DNA from: Dolomedes plantarius
Lineage: Eukaryota > Arthropoda > Arachnida > Araneae > Dolomedidae
Direction of reading: 5' to 3'
Assembly (NCBI GenBank): GCA_907164885.2
Contig: OU015499.1
Location: 148,860,739 to 148,924,738, forward strand
Length of the DNA stretch: 64,000 nt
Part shown: piece after piece, positions 11,232 to 57,112 of the stretch
Layout: every line of letters starts with the position of its first letter
Numbering within the stretch: position 1 is the first letter of the stretch
Notes under the pieces: generated by a model
Told to the model about the DNA's origin: nothing
Database searches by the model: none
The model's input: the letters and a program-made list of their open reading frames with translations, nothing else
Position numbers and translations under genes: made by a program

Positions 11232-12466
11232 CACTATCTGGCCAAAAGTATCCGGACCCCCCCCCCCCCCAAAGAAGTGGATCTAGCAGGTAACGTAATT
11301 TGATGCGTAACCGAAAGCTACAAAAGTGTTGGTAATGGTTTGTCAGGTCATATTTATGCGTTTGTGAGACAATGAGTAAGTCAAAGGAGCTTAGTGACTT
11401 TGATCGTGGCATTATAGTGGGATGCCACCTTTGTGGGAAATCAGTTCGTGAAATTTCGGACATTATACAGAAGCCAAAATCCACTATGAGTGATGCAATT
11501 GTGAAGTGGAAGCGTCGATGCAGTGAAACTGCAGAAAAACGAAGTGGCAGGCCCAAAAAAATTAGTGAACGCCGCCGTAGAACTTTGAAAAGGGTAGTGA
11601 AACAAAATCGCAAGTCCTCGTTGATTGAAATCACTCAGGAGTTCCAAAGTTCATCAGACGTTAGTGCTAGCAGCAGGACTTTTCGTCGAGAGTTAAAAAC
11701 CTGGGATTCCACGGTCGTTCAGCCGCTCACAAGCCGAACATCACTCCCCAGAATGCGAAGCGTCGATTGCAATGGTTCAAAGCTTACCTTCACTGGACTG
11801 TGGACATGTGAAAAAATGTACTTTGGAGTGATGAATCTCGCTTTACAATCTGGCAGTCCGATGGACGCGTCTGGGTTTGGCGGATGCCCGGCGAGCGCTT
11901 CTTACGTGACTGCATTGTGACGACTGTTAAGTTTGGTGGTGGCAGCATCATGGTGTGGGGGTGTTTTTCGTGGTTTGGCCTGGGTTCCTTAGTTCCCGTG
12001 GTTGGAAACATGAACTCTGAGATGTATGTGGACATTCTGGACAATGCTGCTCTCCCAACTCTATGGCAATATTTCGGGGAAGGCCCATTTCTCTTCCAGC
12101 AAGATAACTGCTCCATTCATACATCGAGACTTGCGCAGGCATGGTTTGACGAAATGGGTGTTCAAAAACTGGAGTGGCCTTATCAGAGCCCCGATCTAAA
12201 TCCCATTGAACACTTTTGGGACGAATTAGAACGCAGATTACGTAGCCGGCCAAATCGACCATCCTCACTGCCAGCACTCACTTCAGCTGTGATGGACGCC
12301 TGGAAATCAATTCCTATGGATATATGTCAAAAACTGGGGGAAAGTCTCCCCAGACGTGTGCAGGCTGTCATCGATGCATAAGGAGGACCAACATCATATT
12401 AATATATGCCTCAGGACTCTCCGAGTTTGTACCACTGGGCGTCTGGATGCTTTTGGCCAGATAGTG
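11232..12466 (+). mobile_element. Tc1 transposon, 1235 bp, both ends and TA duplication present
   Basis: The left end CACTATCTGGCCAAAAGTAT and the inverted right end CACTATCTGGCCAAAAGCAT form TIRs bounded by TA (11230-11231, 12467-12468). The left TIR is followed by a long C-run (about 11259-11272) not matched on the right, probably a microsatellite-type expansion. It carries one transposase ORF with a frameshift and a nonsense codon. Confidence 0.9.
11372..12381 (+). pseudogene. Tc1 transposase (DD34E), one frameshift and one stop from intact
   Basis: Starts at ATG 11372 (MSKSKELSDFDRG), a paired-like helix-turn-helix N-terminus with a GRPKK motif after the first HTH. A one-base loss near 11698 shifts the frame after RRELKT. 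A TGA at 11809-11811 then interrupts the second frame just before NVLWSDES. The remainder is open to the stop at 12379-12381. Catalytic residues are visible as WSDES, FQQDN and NPIEHFW, with 34 residues between the second D and the E, the Tc1 DD34E spacing. VMVWG-type and SPDLNPIE blocks are also present. Only two lesions mark it as a fairly young inactive copy. Confidence 0.9.
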
Positions 12467-17052: not shown

Positions 17053-17698
17053 GTGATTAGGTGCTTCAGCGTTCTTCGTTGTGAATATGGAACACCGAGA
17101 CATCCCAGAGTTCGTGTGATAATTTTGCTTTCTTTAGGCAGTTGATTGCTTGCTTAGTATTTTCCATTCATCAGATTATTACATGCATGTCCTGTAGGAT
17201 GTTGCGCGTCAAAACATTATCAACAATCTACGGAAAGTTCGATATCACTCATCGCTCTTTGATTTCCCTCGTGTATTGCCTAGTATACTTGCTTCTGTAT
17301 TCTTATAAATCCATTGAAAGGTCTATCTCATCGCTCTTCAATTTCCCCCGTGTCCATCCCAGTACAGTTGCCATCTTTTGTATTCTAGAAGAGGCCATCT
17401 GAATGTTAAAACACGTGGAATTATTTTCTTTGTCTTTTGATGTTGCAGTTTTAGAATATGGGTCATAAAAACTAGAATTACATTTTTGATCCTGTGTTGA
17501 TAAAGCTTCCAATTTTACGCGTTTGAAAGATTTTACGTGCCAATGAGCTCTACGGAAACACCTTGCTGAGGTGTGAGGTATGTTCAAAAGGCAGTGGCAG
17601 TCATGAAAATTATTAGAATCTCTATTTGTACAGTGTAACTTTGTATCGTAGAGTATAATTTATGGAAGGATTTAAAAACATAAATATCTCATTACTTT

Positions 17699-18357
17699 CA
17701 CCTATCCCTCGAAACCCAAATAGAAAAAAAATAGCCATTCCTAGAAAGTGCGTTGGCCTTTCTAGTAGGAAAGCAAACGATCCGAACTACATTTTTAAAA
17801 AATCATCAGTACGTCCGAAGGGTCGCGGAAAATGCAGATTTAAAATTGTACGTGTCCGACGACTCGGACAATGATGTTGTTTTTGAGGAGTCTTAACTCC
17901 TTTTTTTTTAAATGAAATTTTTTTTCACAAATTTTATTCATTGTATATCTCTTATCAGTGTTTTCATGTCTCTTGTTTTTAGTAATGTTATCAATTTTCT
18001 TTTATATCACGATTCTTTTGTCATTATTCTTGATTAGTGTAATTAACTATTATTTATGGCCTCTTTTATAACATTTATGCCTGACTGGTTTATCACTATT
18101 TACGTAAGGCTATTTTTATCACATTGCAAAACCAACGGAATTTTATACTCTATCCGTGTGTTTATATGGGATTTTTTTCATATTTTGACTGTTTTTATCC
18201 CTGTGTGATGTGTATATGTTTTTATCATCGGTTTTAGTTTAGAATCTAAAAATGCTTTCTTATATATACGTTTTTTTAGGGTTTTACCATATGTTTGGCG
18301 CAGCATGTCCTATTTTGGACCTTGCGCCATAAAACCCCAACAAACCAACCAACCAAC
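17699..18357 (+). mobile_element. 5'-truncated retroposon with hairpin 3' end and (CCAA)n tail
   Basis: An 11-bp target duplication CTCATTACTTT flanks the insert (17688-17698, 18358-18368), as for LINE-mediated insertion. The 3' end has a stem-loop (GGCGCA..GTCC / GGAC.TTGCGCC, about 18297-18328) then CATAAAACCCC and a (CCAA)n tail. The 5' part encodes IPRNPNRKKIAIPRKCVG in one frame and SDDSDNDVVFEES-stop in another, an acidic C-terminus I cannot assign. Copy 2 of the locus lacks it. A similar 3' end recurs at 37165-37229. Confidence 0.75.
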
Positions 18358-18368
18358 CTCATTACTTT

Positions 18369-19037
18369 TATTTTTTATATCGTTGCAGGTGTCAATACCC
18401 CCTGTCGTAGATGTGCTTCTGAAAGTTTCGTTCGAATCTTAACGCCCAGAAAAAACTTCTCAGGCGTAGAAATCTATGCATTGTTAAAGAATAACGCGGG
18501 TTGTGAAAGTCAAGCCCCAAAATGAGAGGGAATACTGCAGTTTCGGCGCCGTGCAGAATCTGTACGAACTCTTATTGGTGATAAGAACGTGTCAAAGAAT
18601 CATTGGAATTAGCCAACTTTATTTTCCGAGGAGCATCTATTGCTTGGCCATATTTCAAATAACTCTCGATTCCTATAATTTAGGTCCATAGATAATACTT
18701 ATTCGTTCTGATATAAAATCATGTTTTAATGTTATGTAGACAATATTCTTACCGCATTAGTTAATAATGTTTTCAATGAAATGGTCCAGATCAATAATGT
18801 TTGACATGAATCGCTGACCTTCGTCGCTGACAGATTTCATTTAAATATACATTTCTGAACTGATCATTGATCTGAGATTCTCACCAAAGGAAATAAATCT
18901 TTCGCATCCATATTTCGCTTCAAGCATCGTGTTTCCAGAGGTATATTAATCAAAATTATAATAATAAACATAATTAAGTTTGATTAGAATATCTCACCAT
19001 TTTCGTGTTTTATGACTTATAACTTTCCCCTTTGGCA
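18369..19037 (+). promoter_or_regulatory. Putative 3' splice site and 5' leader of the zinc-finger gene, copy 1
   Basis: A pyrimidine-rich run ending TATCGTTGCAG (AG at 18387-18388) is conserved in copy 2 (AG at 26461-26462), so an exon probably starts there. Leader sequence including GCTTCAAGCATCGTGTTTCC is shared with copy 2. About 360 bp around 18497-18860 is unique to copy 1 and carries no recognisable gene. The exon boundaries are inference. Confidence 0.4.
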
Positions 19038-20330
19038 ATGGAGGGCGAACTAACGTTTCACGATTCTGACGAAAATAAATTATCAAGCGCAAGTGTTTCT
19101 CCCCAGGAGCACACCGACGACACTGATGAAAGGTCTACTCTCAGTGATTCGTGCGTTTCAAATGGAACTCGCGCCACTGAAGAACACGTCAACTCTCAAC
19201 ACGTAGAGAAAATTTCTGAATGCGAAAACGTCTCCACTCAACCGCTTCACACAAACACACACACACTGGAACATTCGGGAGAAAAACCATTCATGTGCGA
19301 TGTTTGCAAAAAAGGATTTTTGGTGAAGAGCGCCCTCTACACACACCTGCGCACCCACACCGGAGAAAAACCTCACATCTGCGGCGTTTGCCAGAGAGGG
19401 TTCGCCCAACAGGCGCACTTGAAGAATCACCTGCTGACCCACACGGGAGAGAAACGTTTCGTCTGCGGTGTCTGCCAGAAGGGGTTCGCCGTGAAGGAGC
19501 ATCTGAAGAATCACCTGCTCACCCACACGAGAGAGAAACTTTTCGTCTGCGATGTCTGCCACAAGGGATTCGCCCGGCTGGCGCACCTGAAGAAACACAT
19601 TCTGACCCACATGGGAGAGAAACCTTTTTTCTGCGATGTCTGCCAGAGAGTGTTCACCCGGAAGGCAGACCTGAAGTCACACCTGCGCACCCACACTGGA
19701 GAGAAAACTTTCGTCTGCGATGTCTGCCAGAGACGGTTCGCTTGGCAGGGAGACCTGAAGGTACATCTGCGAACCCACACGGGAGAGAAACCTTTCGTCT
19801 GCGATGTCTGCCAGAAAGGGTTCGCCCGGCAGGTGTACCTTAAGGAACACCTGCGCACTCACACCGGAGAAAAACCTCACATCTGCGGTGTGTGCCAGAG
19901 AGGATTCGCCCAGCCGGCGCATCTGAAGAAACATCTCCTCACACACACCGCAGAAAAACCTCACGTCTGCGGTGTGTGCCAGAGAGGATTTGCCCAGAAG
20001 GCACACCTGAAGGACCACCTGCGCTCTCACACGGGAGAGAAACCTTTCGTCTGTAATGTCTGCCAGAGAGGGTTCAGCCGGCAGCAGAAACTGAAGGAAC
20101 ACTTGCGCACCCACACGGGAGAGAAACCTTTTGTCTGTAATGTCTGCCACAGAGGGTTCAGCCGGCAGGAGATACTGAAGGAACACTTGCGTACCCACAC
20201 GGGAGATAAACCTTTCGTCTGCGAGATATGCGCTAAAGGATTTCCCCGCCTGCACACTTACAAGAACCACCTCTCCAGCCATACGAGGGAGATGCCTTTT
20301 TCTCGAGACGTGTGCATGAATAAGTTTTAG
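19038..20330 (+). CDS. C2H2 zinc-finger protein, 12 fingers (copy 1, truncated)
   Basis: 430 aa from ATG 19038; a TTG six bases upstream is not a plausible eukaryotic start, and ATGG preceded by GGCA gives a fair start context. Residues 1-85 are acidic and serine-rich without a known domain. From about residue 87, twelve canonical fingers (C-x2-C-x12-H-x3-H) follow, joined by HTGEKPF/HTGEKPH linkers, so it should be a nuclear DNA-binding protein. A thirteenth finger has lost its first Cys (MPFSRDVCMNKF) and runs into a TAG at 20328-20330; beyond the stop RHMDIHTGEKPF continues in frame, so the stop is a recent truncation relative to copy 2. Fingers 2-4 and 8-9, and 10-11, are near-duplicates, evidence of internal expansion. 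It may still be functional; function unknown. Confidence 0.88.
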   Translation: MEGELTFHDSDENKLSSASVSPQEHTDDTDERSTLSDSCVSNGTRATEEHVNSQHVEKISECENVSTQPLHTNTHTLEHSGEKPFMCDVCKKGFLVKSALYTHLRTHTGEKPHICGVCQRGFAQQAHLKNHLLTHTGEKRFVCGVCQKGFAVKEHLKNHLLTHTREKLFVCDVCHKGFARLAHLKKHILTHMGEKPFFCDVCQRVFTRKADLKSHLRTHTGEKTFVCDVCQRRFAWQGDLKVHLRTHTGEKPFVCDVCQKGFARQVYLKEHLRTHTGEKPHICGVCQRGFAQPAHLKKHLLTHTAEKPHVCGVCQRGFAQKAHLKDHLRSHTGEKPFVCNVCQRGFSRQQKLKEHLRTHTGEKPFVCNVCHRGFSRQEILKEHLRTHTGDKPFVCEICAKGFPRLHTYKNHLSSHTREMPFSRDVCMNKF

Positions 20331-25363: not shown

Positions 25364-26462
25364 GAAGCTAAGTCATGGTTCCGTAAAAAAGTGACCGTTG
25401 TGCGGGGTGGCCTTATAGAAAAGTTTCACTGTTCTTACAACGAACACAACTGAACGCATTTGTTTGCCTTTGCCTCGGTTTCCTCACTTAGGGGTACAAG
25501 CAGAAGTTGTTCATTAATCTTAGTGAGTCGTCGTTCGTCGTATGTGTACGGAGCCTTCACTTCGGCTTTTTTCTTGGGAATTTCATTTCCAGTAGGAAAT
25601 TTACTTTCGTTGTTCGTTGTCGTAACTGAATAGAGTTGGGAAAATATACAATAATTCACTACACAATATGACCGAACGGCTGCACAAGCATTCGATTTGC
25701 TCAAGTGGTCCCTAACCGAATTTCATACCGAAATTCCCATGAGTTCGTCCGCCGTCGTTCGGTGTTTTTATAGGCGCATTTATGGGCATCTTGACCACCG
25801 ATTAAGTTCTTCAGCGTTCTTCGTTATGGATACTGAACACCGAGACATCCCAGAGTTAGTGTGTTATTTTTACTTTCTTTGGCTAGTTGATAGCTTGCTT
25901 AGTATTTTCCATTCTTCAGATTGTTACATGCATGTTCTGTAGGATGTTGCGCGTCAAACCAGGATGAACAATCTATTGAAAGACCTATCTCACTCATCGC
26001 TGTCTGATTTCCCCTGTGTATTGCCTAGTGTAGTTGCATTTTGCATTCTTGTAAATCCATTGAAAGGTCTATCTCATCGCTCTTCAATTTCCCCCGTGTC
26101 CATCCCAATACAGTTGTCGTCTTTTGTATTCTAGAAAAGGTCATCTGAATGCTAAATCACTTGGAATTATTTTCCTTGGCTTTCGATGTTGCAGTTTTAG
26201 AATACGAGTCATAAAAACTAGAATTACATTTTTGATCCTGTGTTGGTAAAGCTTGCGTGTTAGAAAGATTTTACTTGCCAATGAGTTCCACGGAAACACC
26301 TTGCTGAGGTGTGAGGTATGTCCAAAAGGAATTGTACTGTGACAGTCATGAAAATTATTACAATCTCTATTTGTGCAGTGTAACCTTGTATGTGAGAGTA
26401 TAGTTTATTGAAGGATTTAAAAACACGAATATCTCATTACTTTTATTTTTATATCGTTGCAG

Positions 26463-26730
26463 GTGACAATACGCCCTGTTAGTAGATGTGCTGCTGAAAA
26501 TTTCGTTCGAATCTTATCGGCCAGAAAACACTTCTCAGACGCAAAAATGTTTATGCATTGTAAAAGAATAACTGACCATATAAGATTCTCATCAACGGAA
26601 ATGTATGTTCTGCATCCATCTTTTCCTTCAAGCATCGTGTTTCCAAAGGAATAATAAAAAATAAAAAATTAAGTTGGATTAGAGAAACTTAATCTATTCG
26701 TGTTTTATCACATTACCCGTCCTTTTGGAC
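26463..26730 (+). promoter_or_regulatory. Putative 5' leader exon start of the zinc-finger gene, copy 2
   Basis: It follows a pyrimidine-rich run and TATCGTTGCAG, matching copy 1. No long ORF. It contains CTTCAAGCATCGTGTTTCC, shared with copy 1 just before the coding start. The mRNA structure is inference. Confidence 0.4.
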
Positions 26731-28695
26731 ATGGAGTACGAAATGACTTTTAACGATTCCGACAAAAGAAAAATTTCAGGCGCAAGTTATTCTTCCCAGG
26801 AGTACCCTAACGAAACCGAGGAGATATCTACTCTCAGTGATTCGTGCGTTTCAAACGGAACTGACGCCACTGAAGAACACCTCAACTTGAAGCACGGAGA
26901 GACTATTTCCGAATGCGAAAACGTCTCCGCTCAACCGATTCACCGAAACACACATACACACGAACACACGGGTGAAAAACCCTTCATGTGCGATGTTTGT
27001 AAAAAAGGATTTTCTTTCAAGAGCGTACTCAACAGACACTTGCGCGCCCACACGGGAGAGAAACCTCACGTCTGCGGTGTGTGTCAGAAAGGATTTTCTC
27101 AGCAGACGCATCTGAAGCAGCATCTGCTCACCCACACGGGAGAGAAACCTTTTTCCTGCGATATCTGCCAGAAGGGGTTCACCCTGAAGGTGGCTTTGAA
27201 GAATCACCTGCTCACACACACGAGAGATAAACCTTTCGTCTGCGATGTCTGCCACAGAGATTTCGCCCAGCAGGCACACCTGAAGAAACACATGCTGACC
27301 CACATGGGAGAGAAACCTTTTTTTTGCGATGTCTGCCAGAGAGTGTTCGCCCGGAAGGCAGATCTGAAGTCACACCAGCGCACCCACACCGGAGAGAAAC
27401 CTCACGTCTGCGGTGTGTGTCAGAAAGGATTCGCCCAGCAGGCACATCTGAAGCAGCACCTGTTCACCCACACAGAAGATAAACCTTTCGTCTGCGGTGT
27501 CTGCCACGGAGGATTCACCCGCCAGGAGTCCCTGGAGGTACACTTGCGCACCCACACGGGAGAAAAACCTTACGTCTGCGATGTCTGCCACAGAGGGTTC
27601 ACCCGGCAGAGATACCTGAAGATACACCTGCTCACCCACACAGGTGAAAAACCTCACGTCTGCGATGTCTGCCAGAGAGGGTTCGCCCGGCAGAGAGACC
27701 TGAAGGTACACCTGCGAACCCATACCGGAGAAAAACCTCACGTCTGCGGTGTGTGCCAGAGACGATTCGCCCATAAGATGAACCTGAAGACACACCTTCG
27801 CACCCACACCGGAGAAAAACCTCACGTATGCGATGTGTGCCAGAGACGGTTCGTCTACTACGAGTCCCTGAAGGTACACCTTCGCACCCACACCGGAGAC
27901 AAACCTCACGTCTGCGATGTGTGCCAGAGACGATTCGTACATAAGATGAACCTGAAGACACACCTTCGCACCCACACCGGAGAAAAACCTCACGTCTGTG
28001 GTGTGTGCCAGAGAGGGTTCACTCATCGGGAGACCCTGAAGGTACACCTGCGCACCCACACCGGAGATAAACCTCACGTTTGCGGTGTGTGCCAGAAAAG
28101 ATTTGCCTGGAAGTCGAGCCTAATGGTCCACCTGCGCTCCCACACCGGAGAAAACCCTCATGTCTGCAGTGTGTGCCAGAAAGGATTTGCCAATAAAAGC
28201 AACCTAAGATTCCACCTGCGCACCCACAACGGAGAAACACCTCACGTCTGCAGTGTGTGTCAGAAAGGATTTGCCAGACAAAGCAACCTAATATTCCACC
28301 TGCGCACCCACAACGGAGAAACACCTCACGTCTGCGGCGTGTGCCGGAGAGTATTCACCCAGGAGCGCCATCTGAATCAGCACCTGGTCTTCCACAGGGA
28401 AGAGATGCCTTTCTCATGCGACGTGTGCGGGAAGCGGTTCTACGAGAAGAAGAACCTTGATAGGCACATTGGCATCCACACTGCAGATAAGCCTTTAGTT
28501 TGCAGCGTGTCCGTGGGCGGATTCTCGGACGCGGGCCGCCTCAAGGAACACTTCAGTAACTACACTGGGGAAAAACCGTTCATCTGCAAGGTGTGCGAGA
28601 AGGGGTTTTTCCTGCAATGCAGCTTGATCAGACACAACAAGATTCACCTGGGAGAAGTTTCATTCATCAAAGAGGAAATTCTGGACGAGGGCTAA
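26731..28695 (+). CDS. C2H2 zinc-finger protein, 19 canonical fingers (copy 2, full length)
   Basis: 654 aa from ATG 26731 ([14 protein letters not shown]); the in-frame TTG two codons upstream is not used as a start. Residues 1-85 are acidic and Ser/Thr-rich, like copy 1. About residue 87 onward there are nineteen C-x2-C-x12-H-x3-H fingers plus one degenerate unit (CSVSVGGF...HFSNY: second Cys to Ser, last His to Tyr) between fingers 18 and the last. Linkers are mostly HTGEKPH, but fingers 15-17 use HNGETPH. Fingers 10-11 and 12-13 repeat as a two-finger module (HKMNLKTH then ESLKVH/ETLKVH), and 15-16 are near-copies. The acidic end [12 protein letters not shown] follows the last finger. It is presumably a nuclear DNA-binding protein; no KRAB, SCAN, BTB or ZAD domain is visible. 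A (TA)n tract and a Tc1 element follow within 100 bases of the stop. Confidence 0.92.
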
Positions 28696-33522: not shown

Positions 33523-35628
33523 TTAGACTGGGTAAGGACAGTGTTGATCCATGAGTAAAGAAACTATTTTACAAATAAATTTTTTACAGTAAAAATCATT
33601 ATAAAATTTATGTTTTTCCCAGGTACGAATCCCTGGTGATAAGTTTTTTCTATAATTTGAAAAATCAGGACAGTCGAAGAGACAGTGGTCTACTGTTTGA
33701 ATTGCTCGACAGGAGCAGGCATTATCTTTACCATGAAATCTGTTTTGATAATCACCAAAGGCACCATGGCCCGTGATGGCTTGATTCAAATAGAAATTTG
33801 ACATTAGTCTTTCACTTTTAATATCTTTATATATTTCTTTAGTTCTTCTACCCTTTGTACTGTTGTCCCAGATCTGCTGCCATATTCTCAATTCTTCCCC
33901 ATTCAACAATTTTCTAATTTTATATTTGGTCCATTTATAGTTATAATCAATATTAGTCTTTTCCGCTGCTTCCTTTGCGGTTTTATCAGCCTCTTCATTT
34001 TCTATTATTCCAATATGGGCTTTAACCCAATGAAATTTTATTTTTAATTTGTTATTTTTTATATTCTGTTTTATCTCTCTGATTATCTCACCCTTGTCTT
34101 TTAAAGATTTTAGGGCCTCAAGCGCGCTACGCGAATCCGTATATAAATCGCTCATTTTGATGTTTTCTTTTATCATATATTGGATAGCCATTTGTATGGC
34201 GTGTAGTTCAGCCGTATAAGAATTAGCTCTATCTATTTTCTCTTTTAATTTCTTCTTAATATTACCATTTTCATAAATAACTACACCAGCACCTATGTTA
34301 TCAGCCATTTTAGATCCGTCGGTATAAATTTTTATATTGCTTTCCGCTTCAGGGTTTTTGCTCCATTCAAAACGAATCAGTTCTTGTATTCCTCTAATTC
34401 TCTTCATCCTAGTAAGGCTGTTGTTAGAGTTGTATTTAATATTGTTAATCTCAATTTCTACTTTTTTATCATACAAACAAAACAATTGCTTAATAGTATT
34501 TGCTTTTAGATAAAGTGGAGCACAACCGGCCAGTGTGTTCAAGGCTTCGTTAGAAACCGTTCTATAACATTTAGTTAGGAATAACAAATAGGGTCTTTGA
34601 ATTTGAACAAGTTTCTTTTTGACATATTCCAGGTCTCTATACCATATCTCAGCAGCGTATAATAAAATTTTTTCTACTATTGTTTTATAGATTTCTTTAT
34701 TGATTTCGGGTTTGATCCCCCATGTTTTCTTTGAAATCCTACTTAATTTATAAAATATTTTAAGTGCTTTTTCATTGACCTTATTGAGATGGCTCATAAA
34801 ATTTAATTTAGTGTCGAATATGACTCCAAGATATTTTAGTTCTTTTTGATATTTTAATGATTCGTTACCTATTTTAATAGTGGGTTTTCTAGAAATCTGT
34901 CCTTTATAGGGTACAATAGTGTACCCGCATTTCCCAATGCTAATTTTGAGATCGTTATTGTTAACCCAATTATTACATATATTTAATATCTCTTCCGCGC
35001 TTTCTGAGAATTTATAGACCACAGGGGACTTCAAGATTATAACCAGATCGTCCGCATAAGCTTGCATCTTATATTTTTCTCCCTGATTATTGTCAATCAA
35101 TAAATCGTTTATGAAAATCAACCAAAATATGGGCCCCAACGATGATCCCTGAGGAACACCTCTGTTATATTCAATTTGCCCTTTTTTAATAATAATTTTG
35201 CGGTCAGTTAAATAATTAATCAGTATATTCAAAAAAATTTTGTGCAATTTCAACTGTTTGAGTTTCCGTATCAATAGGTTTTTATTGACAGAATTAAAGG
35301 CATTTTGAAAGTCTATAGAGATAATGCAAGTATGGTTTTTATTGTTTTTATTCTCTTTAATTATTTCCATCATGTTATCTAAGGCGTGAGCCGTGCTTAA
35401 GCCCTTTCTAAACCCGTATTGTTTTCCTGATATCAAATTTCTTGTCTCTAAGTAAATAGTTAACCTATTAGTCAGAAGTTTATCAAATATTTTGCCCATA
35501 ACAGGTAAAAGACAGATAGGGCGGTAGGAACTCGTGAATTTTAAGTCCTTACCTTCTTTGGGAAAGAAAACAACCAACGCCTTCTTCCAAGAAAACAAAG
35601 ATCTTAGAAAACAAAGATTCACAAGCAT
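33523..35628 (-). CDS. Non-LTR retrotransposon ORF2 part: reverse transcriptase + RNase H
   Basis: A 701-aa open frame. RT blocks run from FPKEGKDLKFTSSYRPICLL (about residue 24), GFRKGLSTAHALDNM, IISIDFQNAFNSV, GVPQGSSLGPIFWLIFINDL, QAYADDLVII (catalytic YADD, about residue 191) to KYLGVIFD. An RNase H domain follows from about residue 438: IYTDGSKM, AELHAIQMAIQ, LYTDSRSALEAL and HWVKAHIGIIENEEADKTA show the D-E-D-D residues. A C-terminal CSC...DHCLFDC zinc-knuckle-like motif completes it. RT plus RNase H plus this Cys/His tail fits the I/R1 group. The endonuclease and ORF1 are missing: the frame starts in RT block 0, so the copy is 5'-truncated and cannot move by itself. It lies inside the hAT-bounded block. 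Confidence 0.88.
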   Translation of the reverse strand: MLVNLCFLRSLFSWKKALVVFFPKEGKDLKFTSSYRPICLLPVMGKIFDKLLTNRLTIYLETRNLISGKQYGFRKGLSTAHALDNMMEIIKENKNNKNHTCIISIDFQNAFNSVNKNLLIRKLKQLKLHKIFLNILINYLTDRKIIIKKGQIEYNRGVPQGSSLGPIFWLIFINDLLIDNNQGEKYKMQAYADDLVIILKSPVVYKFSESAEEILNICNNWVNNNDLKISIGKCGYTIVPYKGQISRKPTIKIGNESLKYQKELKYLGVIFDTKLNFMSHLNKVNEKALKIFYKLSRISKKTWGIKPEINKEIYKTIVEKILLYAAEIWYRDLEYVKKKLVQIQRPYLLFLTKCYRTVSNEALNTLAGCAPLYLKANTIKQLFCLYDKKVEIEINNIKYNSNNSLTRMKRIRGIQELIRFEWSKNPEAESNIKIYTDGSKMADNIGAGVVIYENGNIKKKLKEKIDRANSYTAELHAIQMAIQYMIKENIKMSDLYTDSRSALEALKSLKDKGEIIREIKQNIKNNKLKIKFHWVKAHIGIIENEEADKTAKEAAEKTNIDYNYKWTKYKIRKLLNGEELRIWQQIWDNSTKGRRTKEIYKDIKSERLMSNFYLNQAITGHGAFGDYQNRFHGKDNACSCRAIQTVDHCLFDCPDFSNYRKNLSPGIRTWEKHKFYNDFYCKKFICKIVSLLMDQHCPYPV

Positions 35629-37498: not shown

Positions 37499-37858
37499 TA
37501 GATCGACAGTGGCACAAGGGAAACTCGAGAGACACACTCCTGGGGCAATTCAAAATGATGTCCTAAAGGACTTCACAGTGGATCGATGCTTTGGAGAAAT
37601 GTGTTGAAGCAAATGTTTAAATTTTAATTGCCGTTAACCTCGTGAGGGTAGATTTAATTGTGTCTTTCACTTCTTTTTGAAAGTACCTGTCTGATTGGCC
37701 CTCATTTAGCAAAAAAAAAGACCTCAACCAAACCAAACCAAACCCTTTTGAAAGTACAGAGTGATCCAAAAGTTATTTATTCGTCTTTTTCACAAACAAC
37801 ACCAGTAGATGACATAGTCGCATCGCATATAATTCTGTATCTATAAAAATGAGAAACA
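37499..37858. other. Non-coding spacer
   Basis: No coding signal on either strand. A (CCAAA)n-like stretch near 37726-37743 resembles a retroposon tail. Confidence 0.4.
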
Positions 37859-40800
37859 CAGGGTTATCAGGAAAGAACCATCCGATTACAAAATTTAATA
37901 TGTTCCATAATTACAAACAGAAAATTATAATTAATATGTCATTGTAAAGGAAAAATGTTAAATTTTTAGTCTGTAACATTTTTGACACAACACACAAAAT
38001 ACCATACCATTGGATTGGTCGCAGTGCAGCCGATGATTTGGTTCTACACAGCTACCCTCCTAGATCACCGGACTTAACCCCCATGCGACTTCTTCTTTTG
38101 GGGATATGTCAAAGATCTTGTGGTCGTACCACCTTTGCCTCCAAGTTTGCCCGAACTTAACGCATTTGTGATGCTTTACAATTTGTGATGTTTGACAGTT
38201 CATAGTGAAACATTACACAGCTACCCTCCTAGATCGCCGGACTTAACCCCAGGCGACTTCTTCTGGGGATATGTCAAAGATCTTGTGTTCGTACCACCTT
38301 TGCCTACAAGTTTGCCCGAACTTAAACAACGCATTTGTGATGCTTTACAATTTGTGATGTTTGACAGTTAATAGTGAAACATTACACAGCTACCCTCCTA
38401 GATCGCCGGACTTTACCGCATGCGACTTCTTCTTTTGGGGATATGTCAAAGATGTTGTGTTCGTACCACCTTTGCCTACAAGTTTTCCCGAACTTAAACA
38501 ACGCATTTGTGATGCTTTACAATTTGTGATGTTTGACAGTTAATAGTGAAACATTACACAGCTACCCTCCTAGATCGCCGGACTTAACCCCAGGCGACTT
38601 CTTCTGGGGATATGTCAAAGATCTTGTGTTCGTACCACCTTTGCCTACAAGTTTTCCCGAACTTAAACAACGCATTTGTGATGCTTTACAATTTGTGATG
38701 TTTGACAGTTAATAGTGAAATATTACACAGCTACCCTCCTAGATCGCCGGACTTAACCCCAGGCGACTTCTTCTGGGGATATGTCAAAGATCTTGTGTTC
38801 GTACCACCTTTGCCTACAAGTTTGCCCGAACTTAAACAACGCATTTGTGATGCTTTACAATTTGTGATGTTTGACAGTTAATAGTGAAACATTACACAGC
38901 TACCCTCCTAGATCGCCGGACTTTACCGCATGCGACTTCTTCTTTTGGGGATATGTCAAAGATGTTGTGTTCGTACCACCTTTGCCTACAAGTTTTCCCG
39001 AACTTAAACAACGCATTTGTGATGCTTTACAATTTGTGATGTTTGACAGTTAATAGTGAAACATTACACAGCTACCCTCCTAGATCGCCGGACTTAACCC
39101 CAGGCGACTTCTTCTGGGGATATGTCAAAGATCTTGTGTTCGTACCACCTTTGCCTACAAGTTTTCCCGAACTTAAACAACGCATTTGTGATGCTTTACA
39201 ATTTGTGATGTTTGACAGTTAATAGTGAAATATTACACAGCTACCCTCCTAGATCGCCGGACTTAACCCCAGGCGACTTCTTCTGGGGATATGTCAAAGA
39301 TCTTGTGTTCGTACCACCTTTGCCTACAAGTTTGCCCGAACTTAAACAACGCATTTGTGATGCTTTACAATTTGTGATGTTTGACAGTTAATAGTGAAAC
39401 ATTACACAGCTACCCTCCTAGATCGCCGGACTTAACCCCAGGCGACTTCTTCTGGGGATATGTCAAAGATCTTGTGTTCGTACCACCTTTGCCTACAAGT
39501 TTTCCCGAACTTAAACAACGCATTTGTGATGCTTTACAATTTGTGATGTTTGACAGTTAATAGTGAAACATTACACAGCTACCCTCCTAGATCGCCGGAC
39601 TTAACCCCAGGCGACTTCTTCTGGGGATATGTCAAAGATCTTGTGTTCGTACCACCTTTGCCTACAAGTTTTCCCGAACTTAAACAACGCATTTGTGATG
39701 CTTTACAATTTGTGATGTTTGACAGTTAATAGTGAAATATTACACAGCTACCCTCCTAGATCGCCGGACTTAACCCCAGGCGACTTCTTCTGGGGATATG
39801 TCAAAGATCTTGTGTTCGTACCACCTTTGCCTACAAGTTTGCCCGAACTTAAACAACGCATTTGTGATGCTTTACAATTTGTGATGTTTGACAGTTAATA
39901 GTGAAACATTACACAGCTACCCTCCTAGATCGCCGGACTTAACCCCAGGCGACTTCTTCTGGGGATATGTCAAAGATCTTGTGTTCGTACCACCTTTGCC
40001 TACAAGTTTTCCCGAACTTAAACAACGCATTTGTGATGCTTTACAATTTGTGATGTTTGACAGTTAATAGTGAAACATTACACAGCTACCCTCCTAGATC
40101 GCCGGACTTAACCCCAGGCGACTTCTTCTGGGGATATGTCAAAGATCTTGTGTTCGTACCACCTTTGCCTACAAGTTTTCCCGAACTTAAACAACGCATT
40201 TGTGATGCTTTACAATTTGTGATGTTTGACAATTAATAGTGAAATATTACACAGCTACCCTCCTAGATCGCCGGACTTAACCCCAGGCGACTTCTTCTGG
40301 GGATATGTCAAAGATCTTGTGTTCGTACCACCTTTGCCTACAAGTTTGCCCGAACTTAAACAACGCATTTGTGATGCTTTACAATTTGTGATGTTTGACA
40401 GTTAATAGTGAAATATTACACAGCTACCCTCCTAGATCGCCGGACTTAACCCCAGGCGACTTCTTCTGGGGATATGTCAAAGATCTTGTGTTCGTACCAC
40501 CTTTGCCTACAAGTTTTCCCGAACTTAAACAACGCATTTGTGATGCTTTACAATTTGTGATGTTCGACAGTTAATAGTGAAACATTACACAGCTACCCTC
40601 CTAGATCTCCGGACTTAACCCCAGGCGACTTCTTCTGGGGATATGTCAAAGATCTTGTGTTCGTACCACCTTTGCCTACAAGTTTGCCCGAACTTAAACA
40701 ACGCATTTGTGATGCTTTACAATTTGTGATGTTTGACAGTTAATAGTGAAATATTACACAGCTACCCTCCTAGATCGCCGGACTTAAACCCAGGCGACTT

Positions 40801-42108
40801 CTTCTGGGGATATGTCAAAAATCTTGTGTTCGTACCACCTTTGCCTACAAGTTTTCCCGAACTTAAACAACGCATTTGTGATGCTTTACAATTTGTGATG
40901 TTTGACAGTTAATAGTGAAACATTACACAGCTACCCTCCTAGATCGCCGGACTTAACCCCAGGCGACTTCTTCTGGGGATATGTCAAAGATCTTGTGTTC
41001 GTACCACCTTTGCCTACAAGTTTGCCCGAACTTAAACAACGCATTTGTGATGCTTTACAATTTGTGATGTTTGACAGTTAATAGTGAAACATTACACAGC
41101 TACCCTCCTAGATCGCCGGACTTAACCCCAGGCGACTTCTTCTGGGGATATGTCAAAGATCTTGTGTTCGTACCACCTTTGCCTACAAGTTTGCCCGAAC
41201 TTAAACAACGCATTTGTGATGCTTTACAATTTGTGATGTTTGACAGTTAATAGTGAAATATTACACAGCTACCCTCCTAGATCGCCGGACTTAACCCCAG
41301 GCGACTTCTTCTGGGGATATGTCAAAGATCTTGTGTTCGTACCACCTTTGCCTACAAGTTTGCCCGAACTTAAACAACGCATTTGTGATGCTTTACAATT
41401 TGTGATGTTTGACAGTTAATAGTGAAACATTACACAGCTACCCTCCTAGATCGCCGGACTTAACCCCATGCGACTTCTTCTTTTGGGGATATGTCAAAGA
41501 TCTTGTGTTCGTACCACCTTTGCCTACAAGTTTGCCCGAACTTAACGCATTTGTGATGCTTTACAATTTGTGATGTTTGACAGTTAATAGTGAAACATTA
41601 CACAGCTACCCTCCTAGACCGCCGGACTTAACCCCAGGCGACTTCTTCTGGGGATATGTCAAAGATCTTGTGTTCGTACCACCTTTGCCTACAAGTTTGC
41701 CCGAACTTAACGCATTTGTGATGCTTTACAATTTGTGATGTTTGACAGTTAATAGTGAAATATTACACAGCTACCCTTCTAGATCGCCGGACGTAACCCC
41801 AGGCGATTTCTTCTTCTGGCGATATGTCAAAGATATTGTGTTCGTACCACCTTTGCCTACAAGTTTGCGCGAACTTAAACAAAGCGTTTGTGATATTTCA
41901 CAGTTAATAGTAAAACATCTCAACGTGTTTGGCAAGAAATGGCATATCGCAATGATGATATACGGGTGACTAAAGGAAGTCATATCGAATAACTGTGGAA
42001 AAAAATTTACTTTTTTCCTTTACAATGACGTATTAATTATAATTTTCTGTTTGAAATTATGGAAAATATTAAATTTTGTAATCGGATGATTCTTTCCTGA
42101 TAACCCTC
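37859..42108 (+). mobile_element. Mariner-like element whose interior became a satellite array
   Basis: 37859-37955 (CAGGGTTATCAGGAAAGAAC...) and the inverse of 42008-42108 match over about 95 bp with few differences, including AATTATAATTAATA and GTCATTGTAAAGG. Just inside the left TIR, YHWIGRSAADD is transposase-like, and just inside the right TIR, RVWQEMAYRNDDIRVTKGSH, then IE and a stop, is the transposase C-terminus. Everything between is the 169-bp array. A TA follows the right end; the left flank is CA. Confidence 0.8.
38036..41920 (+). repeat. 169-bp satellite array, 23 units, derived from transposase coding DNA
   Basis: Units start at about 38036 (partial), 38203, 38372, 38544, 38713, 38882, 39054, 39223, 39392, then every 169 bp to 41420, then 41588 and 41753 (last, diverged). 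Exceptions to 169 are 172 (38372, 38882), 168 (41420) and 165 (41588). Each unit encodes YPPRSPDLTPGDFFWGYVKD-like text and VPPLPTSLPELKQRICDALQ before a TAA-TAG. The PRSPDLTP.DFF block holds the last catalytic Asp of mariner-like transposases. Because 169 is not a multiple of three and stops recur, the array as a whole is not a gene. Most units are nearly identical; the first and last two or three are the most diverged. Confidence 0.95.
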
Positions 42109-42395
42109 TATATATAAACATCGCATGTATGGCGAAATGAACATATGTCTATCGACTTATGCCCAATCCGATGTGACTGGAGCCTCAGAGTACTCTAGCA
42201 CAGGGGCCTATTATACCTTAATCCGGCCATGCTCAGAAGGCATTGTCTGTTCCATGCTACAGACGACCTGGTGGGAGTTGAACAAGAACAGTTTTGTGGT
42301 GGTACATGTACTATACAGTATGTTTATGCAAATACCTTTGGTCGTTTTAGTGTCATTTGAGCCGCCCATTTCCCAAGTCGATTCACTGCATAAAA
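42109..42395. other. Non-coding spacer
   Basis: No recognised feature; the ORFs here run into TA repeats. Confidence 0.4.
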
Positions 42396-42424
42396 CAAAA
42401 TGTGGAGAAATACATACACACACA

Positions 42425-42508
<84 letters not shown>

Positions 42509-42537
42509 TGTGTGTGTATGTGTTTCTCCACATTTTG
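42396..42537. repeat. Palindrome with a (TA)n core
   Basis: CAAAATGTGGAGAAATACAT followed by (AC)n and CAGACATA, then (TA)n of about 75 bp, then the exact inverse ending in CTCCACATTTTG. The arms match over about 35 bp with at most one mismatch. Confidence 0.9.
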
Positions 42538-42563
42538 TATATATATATATATATATATATATA

Positions 42564-51289: not shown

Positions 51290-52246
51290 CTATCTTCCAT
51301 GGATAAGGAGATGCCTTTTCAAATGCACCCGTTGAGAAAATCCTTTCTCACATACAGTGCAGGCGAAAGGTTTCTGTCCTGTGTGGGTGAGGAAATGTTT
51401 ATTTAAAGTACCCTGTTGAGAAAATCTTTTCTTACATATAGTGCAAACGAAAGGTTTCTCTCCTGTGTGAGTGAGGAGATGTCTTTTTAAAGCACACTCT
51501 GTAGAAAACCTTTTCTCACATACAGTGCAGGAGAAAGGTTTCTCTCCTGTATGTGTGCGGAGATGTGTTTGTAAAGCATTCTGTGCAGAAAACCTTTTTT
51601 CACATACAGTACAGACGAAAGGTTTCTCTCCTGTGTGGACACGGAGATGTGTTTTTAAATCACTCTGTTGAGAAAATCTTTTCTCACATACAGTGCAGGA
51701 GAAAGGTTTTTCCCCTGTGTGGGTTTGGAGATGCCTCATCAAATTCCCCCGTTGAGAAAATCTTTTCCCACATACAGTGCAGGCGAAATGTTCCTCTGTT
51801 GTGTGGGTGCGGAGATGATTTTTTAAACTACTCCGTTCAGGAAATCTTTTCTCGCATACAGTGCAGGCAAAAGGTTTCTCTCCTATGTGGGCTCGGAGAT
51901 GTCTTTTTAAACTACTCTGTAAAGCAAATCTTTTCTCACATATAGTGCATTCGAATAGGTTCTTTCCCGTGTTTGTGCAAAGAGTATTATCAGCAATGTG
52001 GTATGAATGATGCGTCTTTAAAGAGGCCAAATCTGAAAATCTTCGGTCACATAAATTACATTCGAAAATTTCTTCTCCGGTGCGAGGGGGAAACTGTGCA
52101 CTGGAGCCTTTTATATTTACACTAATTCTATATGCGTCAAATGAAGTGAATTCATCTTCCACTTTCGTAGGGTTTTGTTCGCAGGAAAGGCTTTCAGTGG
52201 AAAGTTCTTTTAGACTGGAAATACCCGACAATTCCTTTTCTGACAT
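51290..52246 (-). CDS. C2H2 zinc-finger protein, 9 fingers
   Basis: 318 aa from ATG at 52246 (MSEKELSGISSLKELSTESL); the longer reading upstream starts with TTG and is unlikely. The first 65 residues are acidic without a known domain. Nine fingers follow: the first (CNLCDRRFSDLASLKTHHSYH) is set apart by a 20-residue spacer, the next eight have CTVCEKRFS-type starts and HTGEKPF linkers. One linker is changed (HTTEEHF) and one is HTGQKPF. It ends LKRHLLIHGR. The finger consensus (CTVCEKRFSQ) differs from the CDVCQRGFA type of the other two genes here, so it belongs to a separate zinc-finger lineage. Likely nuclear DNA-binding; targets unknown. The frame is fully open and probably functional. 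Confidence 0.88.
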   Translation of the reverse strand: MSEKELSGISSLKELSTESLSCEQNPTKVEDEFTSFDAYRISVNIKGSSAQFPPRTGEEIFECNLCDRRFSDLASLKTHHSYHIADNTLCTNTGKNLFECTICEKRFALQSSLKRHLRAHIGEKPFACTVCEKRFPERSSLKNHLRTHTTEEHFACTVCGKRFSQRGNLMRHLQTHTGEKPFSCTVCEKRFSQQSDLKTHLRVHTGEKPFVCTVCEKRFSAQNALQTHLRTHTGEKPFSCTVCEKRFSTECALKRHLLTHTGEKPFVCTICKKRFSQQGTLNKHFLTHTGQKPFACTVCEKGFSQRVHLKRHLLIHGR

Positions 52247-52407
52247 GCCGACGTTTCTGTACACGATGATGAGAAAACTAACTGCCAGCAATACGTTGAA
52301 CTTCTAAATTTGTGGACAGCTCAAAAATTCTCGTATGGCATCTTACAATCAGTACCGAGCACCTGTAACGGCAGGAGAAAGAAACTGAATGATATATATA
52401 TATATAA

Positions 52408-55908: not shown

Positions 55909-57112
55909 AGACTTGGGGCATAAAACCACTCGTCGTTAAGGAGATCTACCAGTTGATAGTTTAAAAGATCCTGCTTTATGGAGTGCCGTCGTGGTACAAC
56001 AGCACTAGGAGGTTGAATGATAAGTTATTGCAGATCCAGAGACCGTTTCTGTTGCTCTTGACAAAGTGCTACGAAACAGTAGCTACGGACACTCTCGCCG
56101 TACTGGCGGGGTGCTTGCCTTTGGACATAAGAGCCAATATGGAAAGGACACTGCACCTGATCCATAAGGAGAATGGGGCATATGACCTTAATGGTCTCGT
56201 GCTCGATGGGGACAGCTGCGAAGTGAGAAACTTCGATATCCGCTCGATCAAGGATATCAGCAGCATTGACTGGTCGGCCAATCTCGAGCCAAGGTGTAGT
56301 ACCCAGTACTACACAGACGGCTCGAAGATGGAAGGCAAAGTCAGGTCAGGTGTTATCAAGTATGATAATAACTTAAGGCTCTATGATCTAATGGAGAGGA
56401 ACTCAGATCACAGTTCCTCTTATCAGGCTGAGTTAAGGGCGATAGAGATGGTGATCGAGGACGCAATAAAGACTCGAACCAAAGAGTTCGATGTCTATAC
56501 GGACTCCATGAGTGCACTACAAGCGCTCAAAGCTAAGAACTTTAAATGTCGGCTGGTGGAGAATCTGAAAAAGAGTATCAATAACAACGGCTTAAATATT
56601 ACTTGGCATTGGGTGAAAGCCCATGCCGGTAATAGTAAAAATGAAGAGGTGGATGAGGTCGCCAAAAGAGCGACTCAGCTTCCCACCATTACCAATGACT
56701 ATAAGCGGACCAAGAACCAGCTTAAAGGCATACTCATGAAAGATGCCTTAAATTTGTGGCAAGAAAGGTGGAATGAGTCCAACAAAGGCAGGCGGACGCA
56801 GGAAATCTTCCAGAATGTCAGCCTGGATAGGGTCCAATGTGACTTCCTGAGGAACCAGGCGATCACTGGGCAAGGCAGCTTTGGCCAGTACCAGGCCAAA
56901 TTCTTCGGGAAGTCGGACAACTGCAGTTGTGGCGAGATTCAGACAGTCGAGCACTGTCTATTCGACTGCGGAAACTTTGATGACCTGCGGGCCGACCTGC
57001 CGGGGAATGCAAGACAGTGGAGCAAGCATAAACTTTTAACGATTACTACTGTTGCAAAGTAGTAAGCAAAATCGTTAAAAGGCTCATGGACGAACACGTC
57101 CAGCTGCCATAG
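55909..57112 (+). pseudogene. Truncated LINE: end of reverse transcriptase + RNase H
   Basis: Same clade as the LINE at 33523-35628. It begins in RKTWGIKPLVVKEIYQLIV, then TAA at 55962-55964 (Glu in the relative), then an open frame with LLQIQRPFLLLLTKCYETVA, RNase H motifs YYTDGSKM, AELRAIEMVI, VYTDSMSALQAL and HWVKAHAGNSKNEEVDEVA, and the CSCGEIQTVEHCLFDC motif. A frameshift near 57030 shifts the last codons; in the other frame FNDYYCCKVVSKIVKRLMDE runs to a TAG at 57110-57112. The RNase H D-E-D residues are kept; in the last position VDEVA retains the Asp. 5'-truncated, hence dead on arrival. Confidence 0.85.

Follow-up and report, generated by a model that had tools for sequence, protein, structure and literature searches.

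Does a tandem array of about 169-bp units in the genome of Dolomedes plantarius represent a satellite DNA that still lies where it was born, inside the transposon which supplied its sequence? A preliminary description of the window, the 64,000-nucleotide stretch of DNA analysed here, had proposed this and had described the units as encoding a block of a mariner transposase. The results of the current analysis largely support the idea of a satellite at its birthplace, as the array has grown within its own element and its tandem junction is found only here; what has formed is one 3.9-kb proto-satellite. We propose that the locus is very probably a copy of a non-autonomous MITE of the Tc1/mariner type, from a family that is old and high in copy number. 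In this copy, a single leftover segment of the transposase coding sequence would have multiplied to 23 units where it lay.

Structure of the array and its host element

The features on which this proposal is based are given below as positions in the window.

37857-37858, no strand: position of the left target-site duplication, reading CA where TA is expected, placed by comparison with relatives
37860-37967, plus strand: left terminal inverted repeat (TIR), matching the reverse complement of 42001-42107 at 102 of 108 positions (165 bits)
37968-38045, plus strand: left remnant (78 bp), unrepeated, with the transposase reading HWIGR.. from 38008, recognised by similarity to relatives
38046-41899, plus strand: tandem array, 23 units of the transposase 3' coding segment, from TRF, unit splitting and unit comparison
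38215-40248, plus strand: units 2-13, four successive trimers (510, 510, 507 and 507 bp), from lag-3 distances and exact direct repeats
41765-41916, plus strand: unit 23 at the right edge, the most diverged (16-23 events from other units), without one copy of the internal 17-bp duplication
41917-41992, plus strand: C-terminal transposase remnant, unrepeated (QRVWQEMAYRNDDIRVTKGSHIE, stop), found also behind the single unit of nine relatives
42001-42107, minus strand: right TIR, from its pairing with the left TIR and the alignment of relatives

In the assembly, the array comprises 23 pieces of transposase coding sequence arranged head-to-tail, which are 165-172 bp long except for a partial final unit. 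TRF reports a single array at 38045-41894, with a period of 169, 22.8 copies, 97% matches and a score of 7157. Splitting the array at ACACAGCTACCC delimits 18 units of 169 bp, two of 172 bp, one of 168 bp, one of 165 bp and a partial final unit of 135 bp, which is counted to 41899; its homology extends to approximately 41916. The 23 transposase-block units of about 169 bp that had been described are thus present.

The TIRs enclosing the array pair with a score of 165 bits, compared with a maximum of 100 and a median of 19.6 among 200 random window pairs of the same geometry. The left TIR is present in nearly all fetched relatives, and no further copies of the element's ends occur elsewhere within the window. 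The target-site duplication reads CA on the left and TA on the right (42109-42110); of 11 relatives, five (L012, L013, L015, L019, L020) have TA at the expected offset on either side, and the others are decayed or offset. The left remnant matches relatives such as L009, L014-L017 and L019 at 83-93% identity across 60-80 bp, and the right flank reads QRVWQEMAYRND..HIE-stop, with the stop at 41990-41992, eight bases short of the right TIR. Nine single-unit relatives carry both flanks around one unit in the same order, which indicates that the flanks belong to the element itself. Upstream transposase text before the first unit and a last unit running into the true C-terminus, both noted in the preliminary description, are therefore confirmed, and its proposal of an expansion inside one transposon is supported.

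The element without 22 of its units measures 529 bp, and the nine relatives measure 532-551 bp. As is typical of MITEs, it has terminal inverted repeats, as its relatives likewise do, and is short, present in many copies (615 boundary matches) and without a transposase gene; across 40 relative loci (L048-L087), flanks included, the longest stop-free run is 197 codons. The host is a gene-less MITE of approximately 530-540 bp with long inverted repeats, keeping only about the last 90 transposase codons, rather than a mariner element with a transposase gene.

Family of the element, uniqueness and age of the array

The genome assembly (2.78 Gb, 390 contigs) was searched for similarity with 701 bp of the array, and the best 40 of 843 candidates were scored. 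At least 54 matches were obtained, seven in the array and 47 at 39 other places, all of which were fetched. Twenty-nine of these relatives have one unit (one TIR only was recognised in four of them), eight an inverted pair and two a tandem dimer. For a second set of 40 loci, the exact boundary matches on contigs C1 and C2 were followed in the order listed, omitting two C1 rows, one of them the already fetched L047. Twenty-one of these loci have an inverted pair, 18 a single-unit or cut copy and one a mixed form, and none has a tandem pair, which indicates that the inverted-pair form is common; this foldback-like arrangement of two inverted units is represented by L023-L028, L043 and L047 in addition to the 21 among L048-L087. 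In none of the 79 fetched relatives does the unit number exceed two. Direct tandem dimers are found in two of the 79 (L021 and L022), so that duplications on breakpoints other than the array's do occur in the family. The nine single-unit copies aligned end-to-end correspond to the array element throughout, and the unduplicated unit boundary GAAACATTACAACGTGTTTGG is found, with at most one mismatch, at 615 places in the genome (control, 0). In a tree of 36 units all array units group together (support 87/77), with 19 of 33 inner branches open.

The tandem junction GAAAYATTACACAGCTACC has 22 exact occurrences in the genome, all within the array (C9:148898945-148902513), and none in the control. 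When two mismatches were allowed, 78 matches were obtained, 22 in the array and 56 scattered, against 58 for the reversed-pattern control; the 56 off-array sites are never closer to each other than approximately 300 kb. Among the 79 relatives, only L028 has a junction-like site, at three mismatches. The restriction of the exact junction to this locus, together with the 56 matches against 58 in the control, indicates that the assembly holds no second copy of the array. Both searches thus uphold its confinement to one place, and the same array in unrelated contexts, a check set beforehand, was not found in the assembly.

The two TIRs of the element differ at 7 of 107 sites by alignment (6.5%), or by six differences, one of them a gap, by BLAST; the corresponding divergence in 18 relatives is 4.6-15.9%, with a median of 9.4%. 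Most middle units of the array differ by 0-3 changes, and by this comparison the insertion looks older than the amplification. Judged by these divergences, the MITE family appears to be old, and the insertion to predate the middle of the array by far.

These observations bear on whether the locus is a birthplace or a landing place, that is, whether the array grew in another copy and the whole element then transposed here. The array does still lie between TIRs, and the wide occurrence of the inverted-pair form (8 loci among 39 and 21 among 40) suggests that rearranged copies of this MITE family multiplied earlier. However, no other copy of the junction exists in the assembly, and the TIR divergence falls inside the range of the relatives, in contrast to the few changes among most middle units. 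We therefore regard arrival of a ready-made array as unlikely and favour amplification in place.

Proposed founding and growth of the array

We propose that the first duplication would have arisen through a 4-bp microhomology, by which the downstream TACA (..AAACATTACAACG..) became linked with the one upstream (..TTCTACACAGC..), giving ..AAACATTACACAGC.., as would be expected of microhomology-mediated repair or slippage. The junction that is repeated in the array is consistent with such a join. In the single-unit relatives, the right boundary is ATTACAACG in eight of nine, where the segment ends, and the left boundary is ..TACA(C)AG.., with TACA in seven of nine. The array's own left boundary is TTCTACACAGC. 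The one that follows unit 23, CATCTCAACG, lacks TACA, and the case for microhomology therefore rests on the relatives; the element's own right boundary has since been altered.

Once two units were present, unequal exchange or gene conversion would have enlarged and homogenised the middle, often by three units per step, while the edge units would have diverged and no coding function would have been kept. The mean distance between units is 1.31 changes at lag 3 compared with 3.0 at lag 1, a value as low being reached in 2 of 20000 shuffles of the unit order, and two stretches of the array, 712 bp at lag 510 and 760 bp at lag 507, are repeated exactly in direct orientation. In units 9 and 12 the first half is of the standard type, the second half is that of units 3 and 6, and both units look like products of within-unit exchange. 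At the edges, unit 1 is 8-11 events from the middle units, and unit 23, at least 10% diverged, is 16-20 events from them. A 4-bp deletion is common to units 1, 21 and 22 and absent from the middle, which indicates that growth was not one simple series. An internal 17-bp duplication (ATTTGTGATGCTTTACA ATTTGTGATGTTTGACA) is shared by units 1-22 and each of the nine aligned relatives, and is absent from unit 23, in which TTTGTGAT occurs once rather than twice. The simplest reading would be a loss at the edge, and the position of unit 23 among the array units in the tree agrees with this, at weak support; a hybrid element is the alternative. Inverted-pair copies such as L024 carry the simpler TTACAGACAGTTAATAG.

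The 712- and 760-bp repeats are of the type that assemblers mishandle, and an assembly artefact would mean that the true number of units is one, a few or otherwise different from 23. We consider this improbable, as the units carry characteristic differences in an ordered trimer pattern, the edge units are diverged, both edges run into the correct unique flanks, and the assembly is contiguous at the relevant scale. An artefact might alter the count; it could hardly create the junction and the graded edges. The units of the array are homogenised and show a higher-order structure, and its edges are diverged, as in satellites. Satellites usually form long arrays at several loci or in heterochromatin, whereas the assembly holds this one 3.9-kb array, and 'proto-satellite' is therefore the better term.

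Coding capacity and possible function

The translation of the unit is HSYPPRSPDLTPxDFF..WGYVKDLVFVPPLPTSLPELKQRICDALQ. The reading from PRSPD to CDALQ is uninterrupted in 19 of the 23 units (units 2-20), and is not kept in units 1, 21, 22 and 23, which are frame-shifted or altered. The period of 169 is not divisible by three and the standard unit terminates in three stops, and the array is therefore not a repeat protein. A repeat-coding protein is also ruled out by the longest stop-free run within the element, which is 82 codons on either strand. The array is tandem DNA derived from coding sequence, not a coding repeat.

The array might be maintained by selection, for example as a transposase decoy, a source of small RNA or a nucleosome-sized chromatin element, and a unit of 169 bp is, as is generally known, close to the nucleosome repeat. 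Against this, the array stands at a single locus without an open reading frame, and its substitutions are seemingly unconstrained: eight of the 10 codon changes in units 2-20 alter the amino acid, compared with approximately 79% expected without selection, and purifying selection on the units is rejected. The single pattern tried for a CENP-B-box-like motif found none, and a structured RNA is rejected, as no Rfam match reaches the gathering score in the window. Maintenance by selection is thus very improbable. The array has no visible product, and most likely no role, being the neutral growth of a selfish, decaying element into a proto-satellite.

Relation to known systems

The principle of transposon-born satellites is already known from Jozin, miDNA4 and Tetris. 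A close parallel in how the first monomer arose is the Chenopodium satellite CficCl-61-40, with a monomer of approximately 40 bp, which became a major satellite of the genus. It is described as deriving from a deletion derivative of the transposase gene tnp2 in the CACTA element Jozin, with a fragment of the parent still attached (PMC7320549). In that account the array lies on one side of the tnp2 fragment, whereas the 169-bp unit here forms one array with both sides and both TIRs kept. The miDNA4 element of Xenopus is likewise a MITE of the Tc1/mariner type; the tandem array inside it varies in copy number, and microhomology has been proposed for it, as cited in PMC12628747 and PMC9659126. 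For miDNA4, capture of a pre-existing repeat has been proposed, whereas the repeat here is the MITE's own transposase remnant. That a pre-existing satellite was captured by, or inserted in, the present MITE has only this precedent (PMC12628747) in its favour and is rejected as nearly refuted, as the unit is the element's own segment in its proper place, according to the 615 boundary matches and the structure of the fetched relatives, and the tandem junction is unique to the array in the assembly.

In Drosophila virilis, the internal repeats of Tetris/TIR-220, a non-autonomous DNA transposon, are described as seeding satellite-like arrays, and its foldback architecture is matched by the inverted-pair copies of the MITE family studied here (PMC4079207). 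The TIR-220 repeats are reported within the TIRs and also in free arrays, whereas the present repeat is enclosed by the TIRs, and the assembly showed no free array of it. Merlin elements also contain internal tandem repeats regarded as possible proto-satellites; they belong to another superfamily, and the available account does not trace the repeats to a transposase segment (PMC8101967). Beyond these precedents, the literature search returned only unrelated work, and a motif search in papers returned none.

What is unusual here is the completeness of the record, a proto-satellite at a single locus together with its parent family. The beginnings of satellites are usually reconstructed once the parent is lost. 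Here one genome contains the parent family, the founding breakpoint, the trimer stages in between and the siblings that did not expand. This makes models of satellite birth (a start by microhomology followed by unequal exchange) testable at one locus, its variation among individuals included. We suggest, tentatively and as a possibility only, that the founding of a satellite family may be seen here as a single event. One of at least several hundred near-identical MITEs would have turned into an array that expands by itself, whose breakpoint could be dated and whose growth steps are on record, and for which the siblings left unexpanded would provide the controls. The array could also spread ready-made if a transposase recognises the element's ends, since these remain.

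Transposase affinity and neighbourhood

The label 'mariner' receives only indirect support. Members of the IS630-Tc1-mariner superfamily are marked by a TA target-site duplication and by a transposase of the DDE/D fold, whose third catalytic motif is SPDL.P(D/E). In the mariner family proper (DD34D), 34 residues separate the second and third catalytic residues; the first two catalytic residues are absent from the element. The 89-aa remnant matched no transposase family in Pfam at E values up to 1 and nothing relevant in the PDB, and in NCBIfam its match to IS630 reached no better than E 0.055, far under the cut-off. Aligned with the Tc1-type ORF at 11884-12381 of the window, which passes the Pfam cut-off for DDE_3, it shows 18 identities over 61 positions (E 1e-7), with D against E. 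Searches for relatives in viral contigs (six protein-pattern matches, none confirmed; two DNA patterns), prokaryote genome contigs (62 protein-pattern matches, none confirmed; a DNA pattern), and plasmids and phages returned none.

The window contains further mobile and repeated sequences. A broken Tc1-type transposase with overlapping frames lies at 11372-12381, with similarity to HTH (below the Pfam cut-off) and DDE_3 (above it). Frames of non-LTR retrotransposons are found at 33523-35628 on the minus strand (reverse transcriptase and RNase H) and at 55983-57062 on the plus strand (part of RNase H). Two C2H2 zinc-finger reading frames of 432 and 656 aa, at 17055-20330 and 25800-28695, have similar surroundings, and with fingers 80% and an upstream block 87% identical they represent a local gene duplication; the minus strand contains a third zinc-finger frame at 51290-52291. 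Just to the right of the element, at 42395-42538, is a 144-bp near-perfect palindrome with 72-nt arms that are 99% complementary, no spacer and a long AT core.
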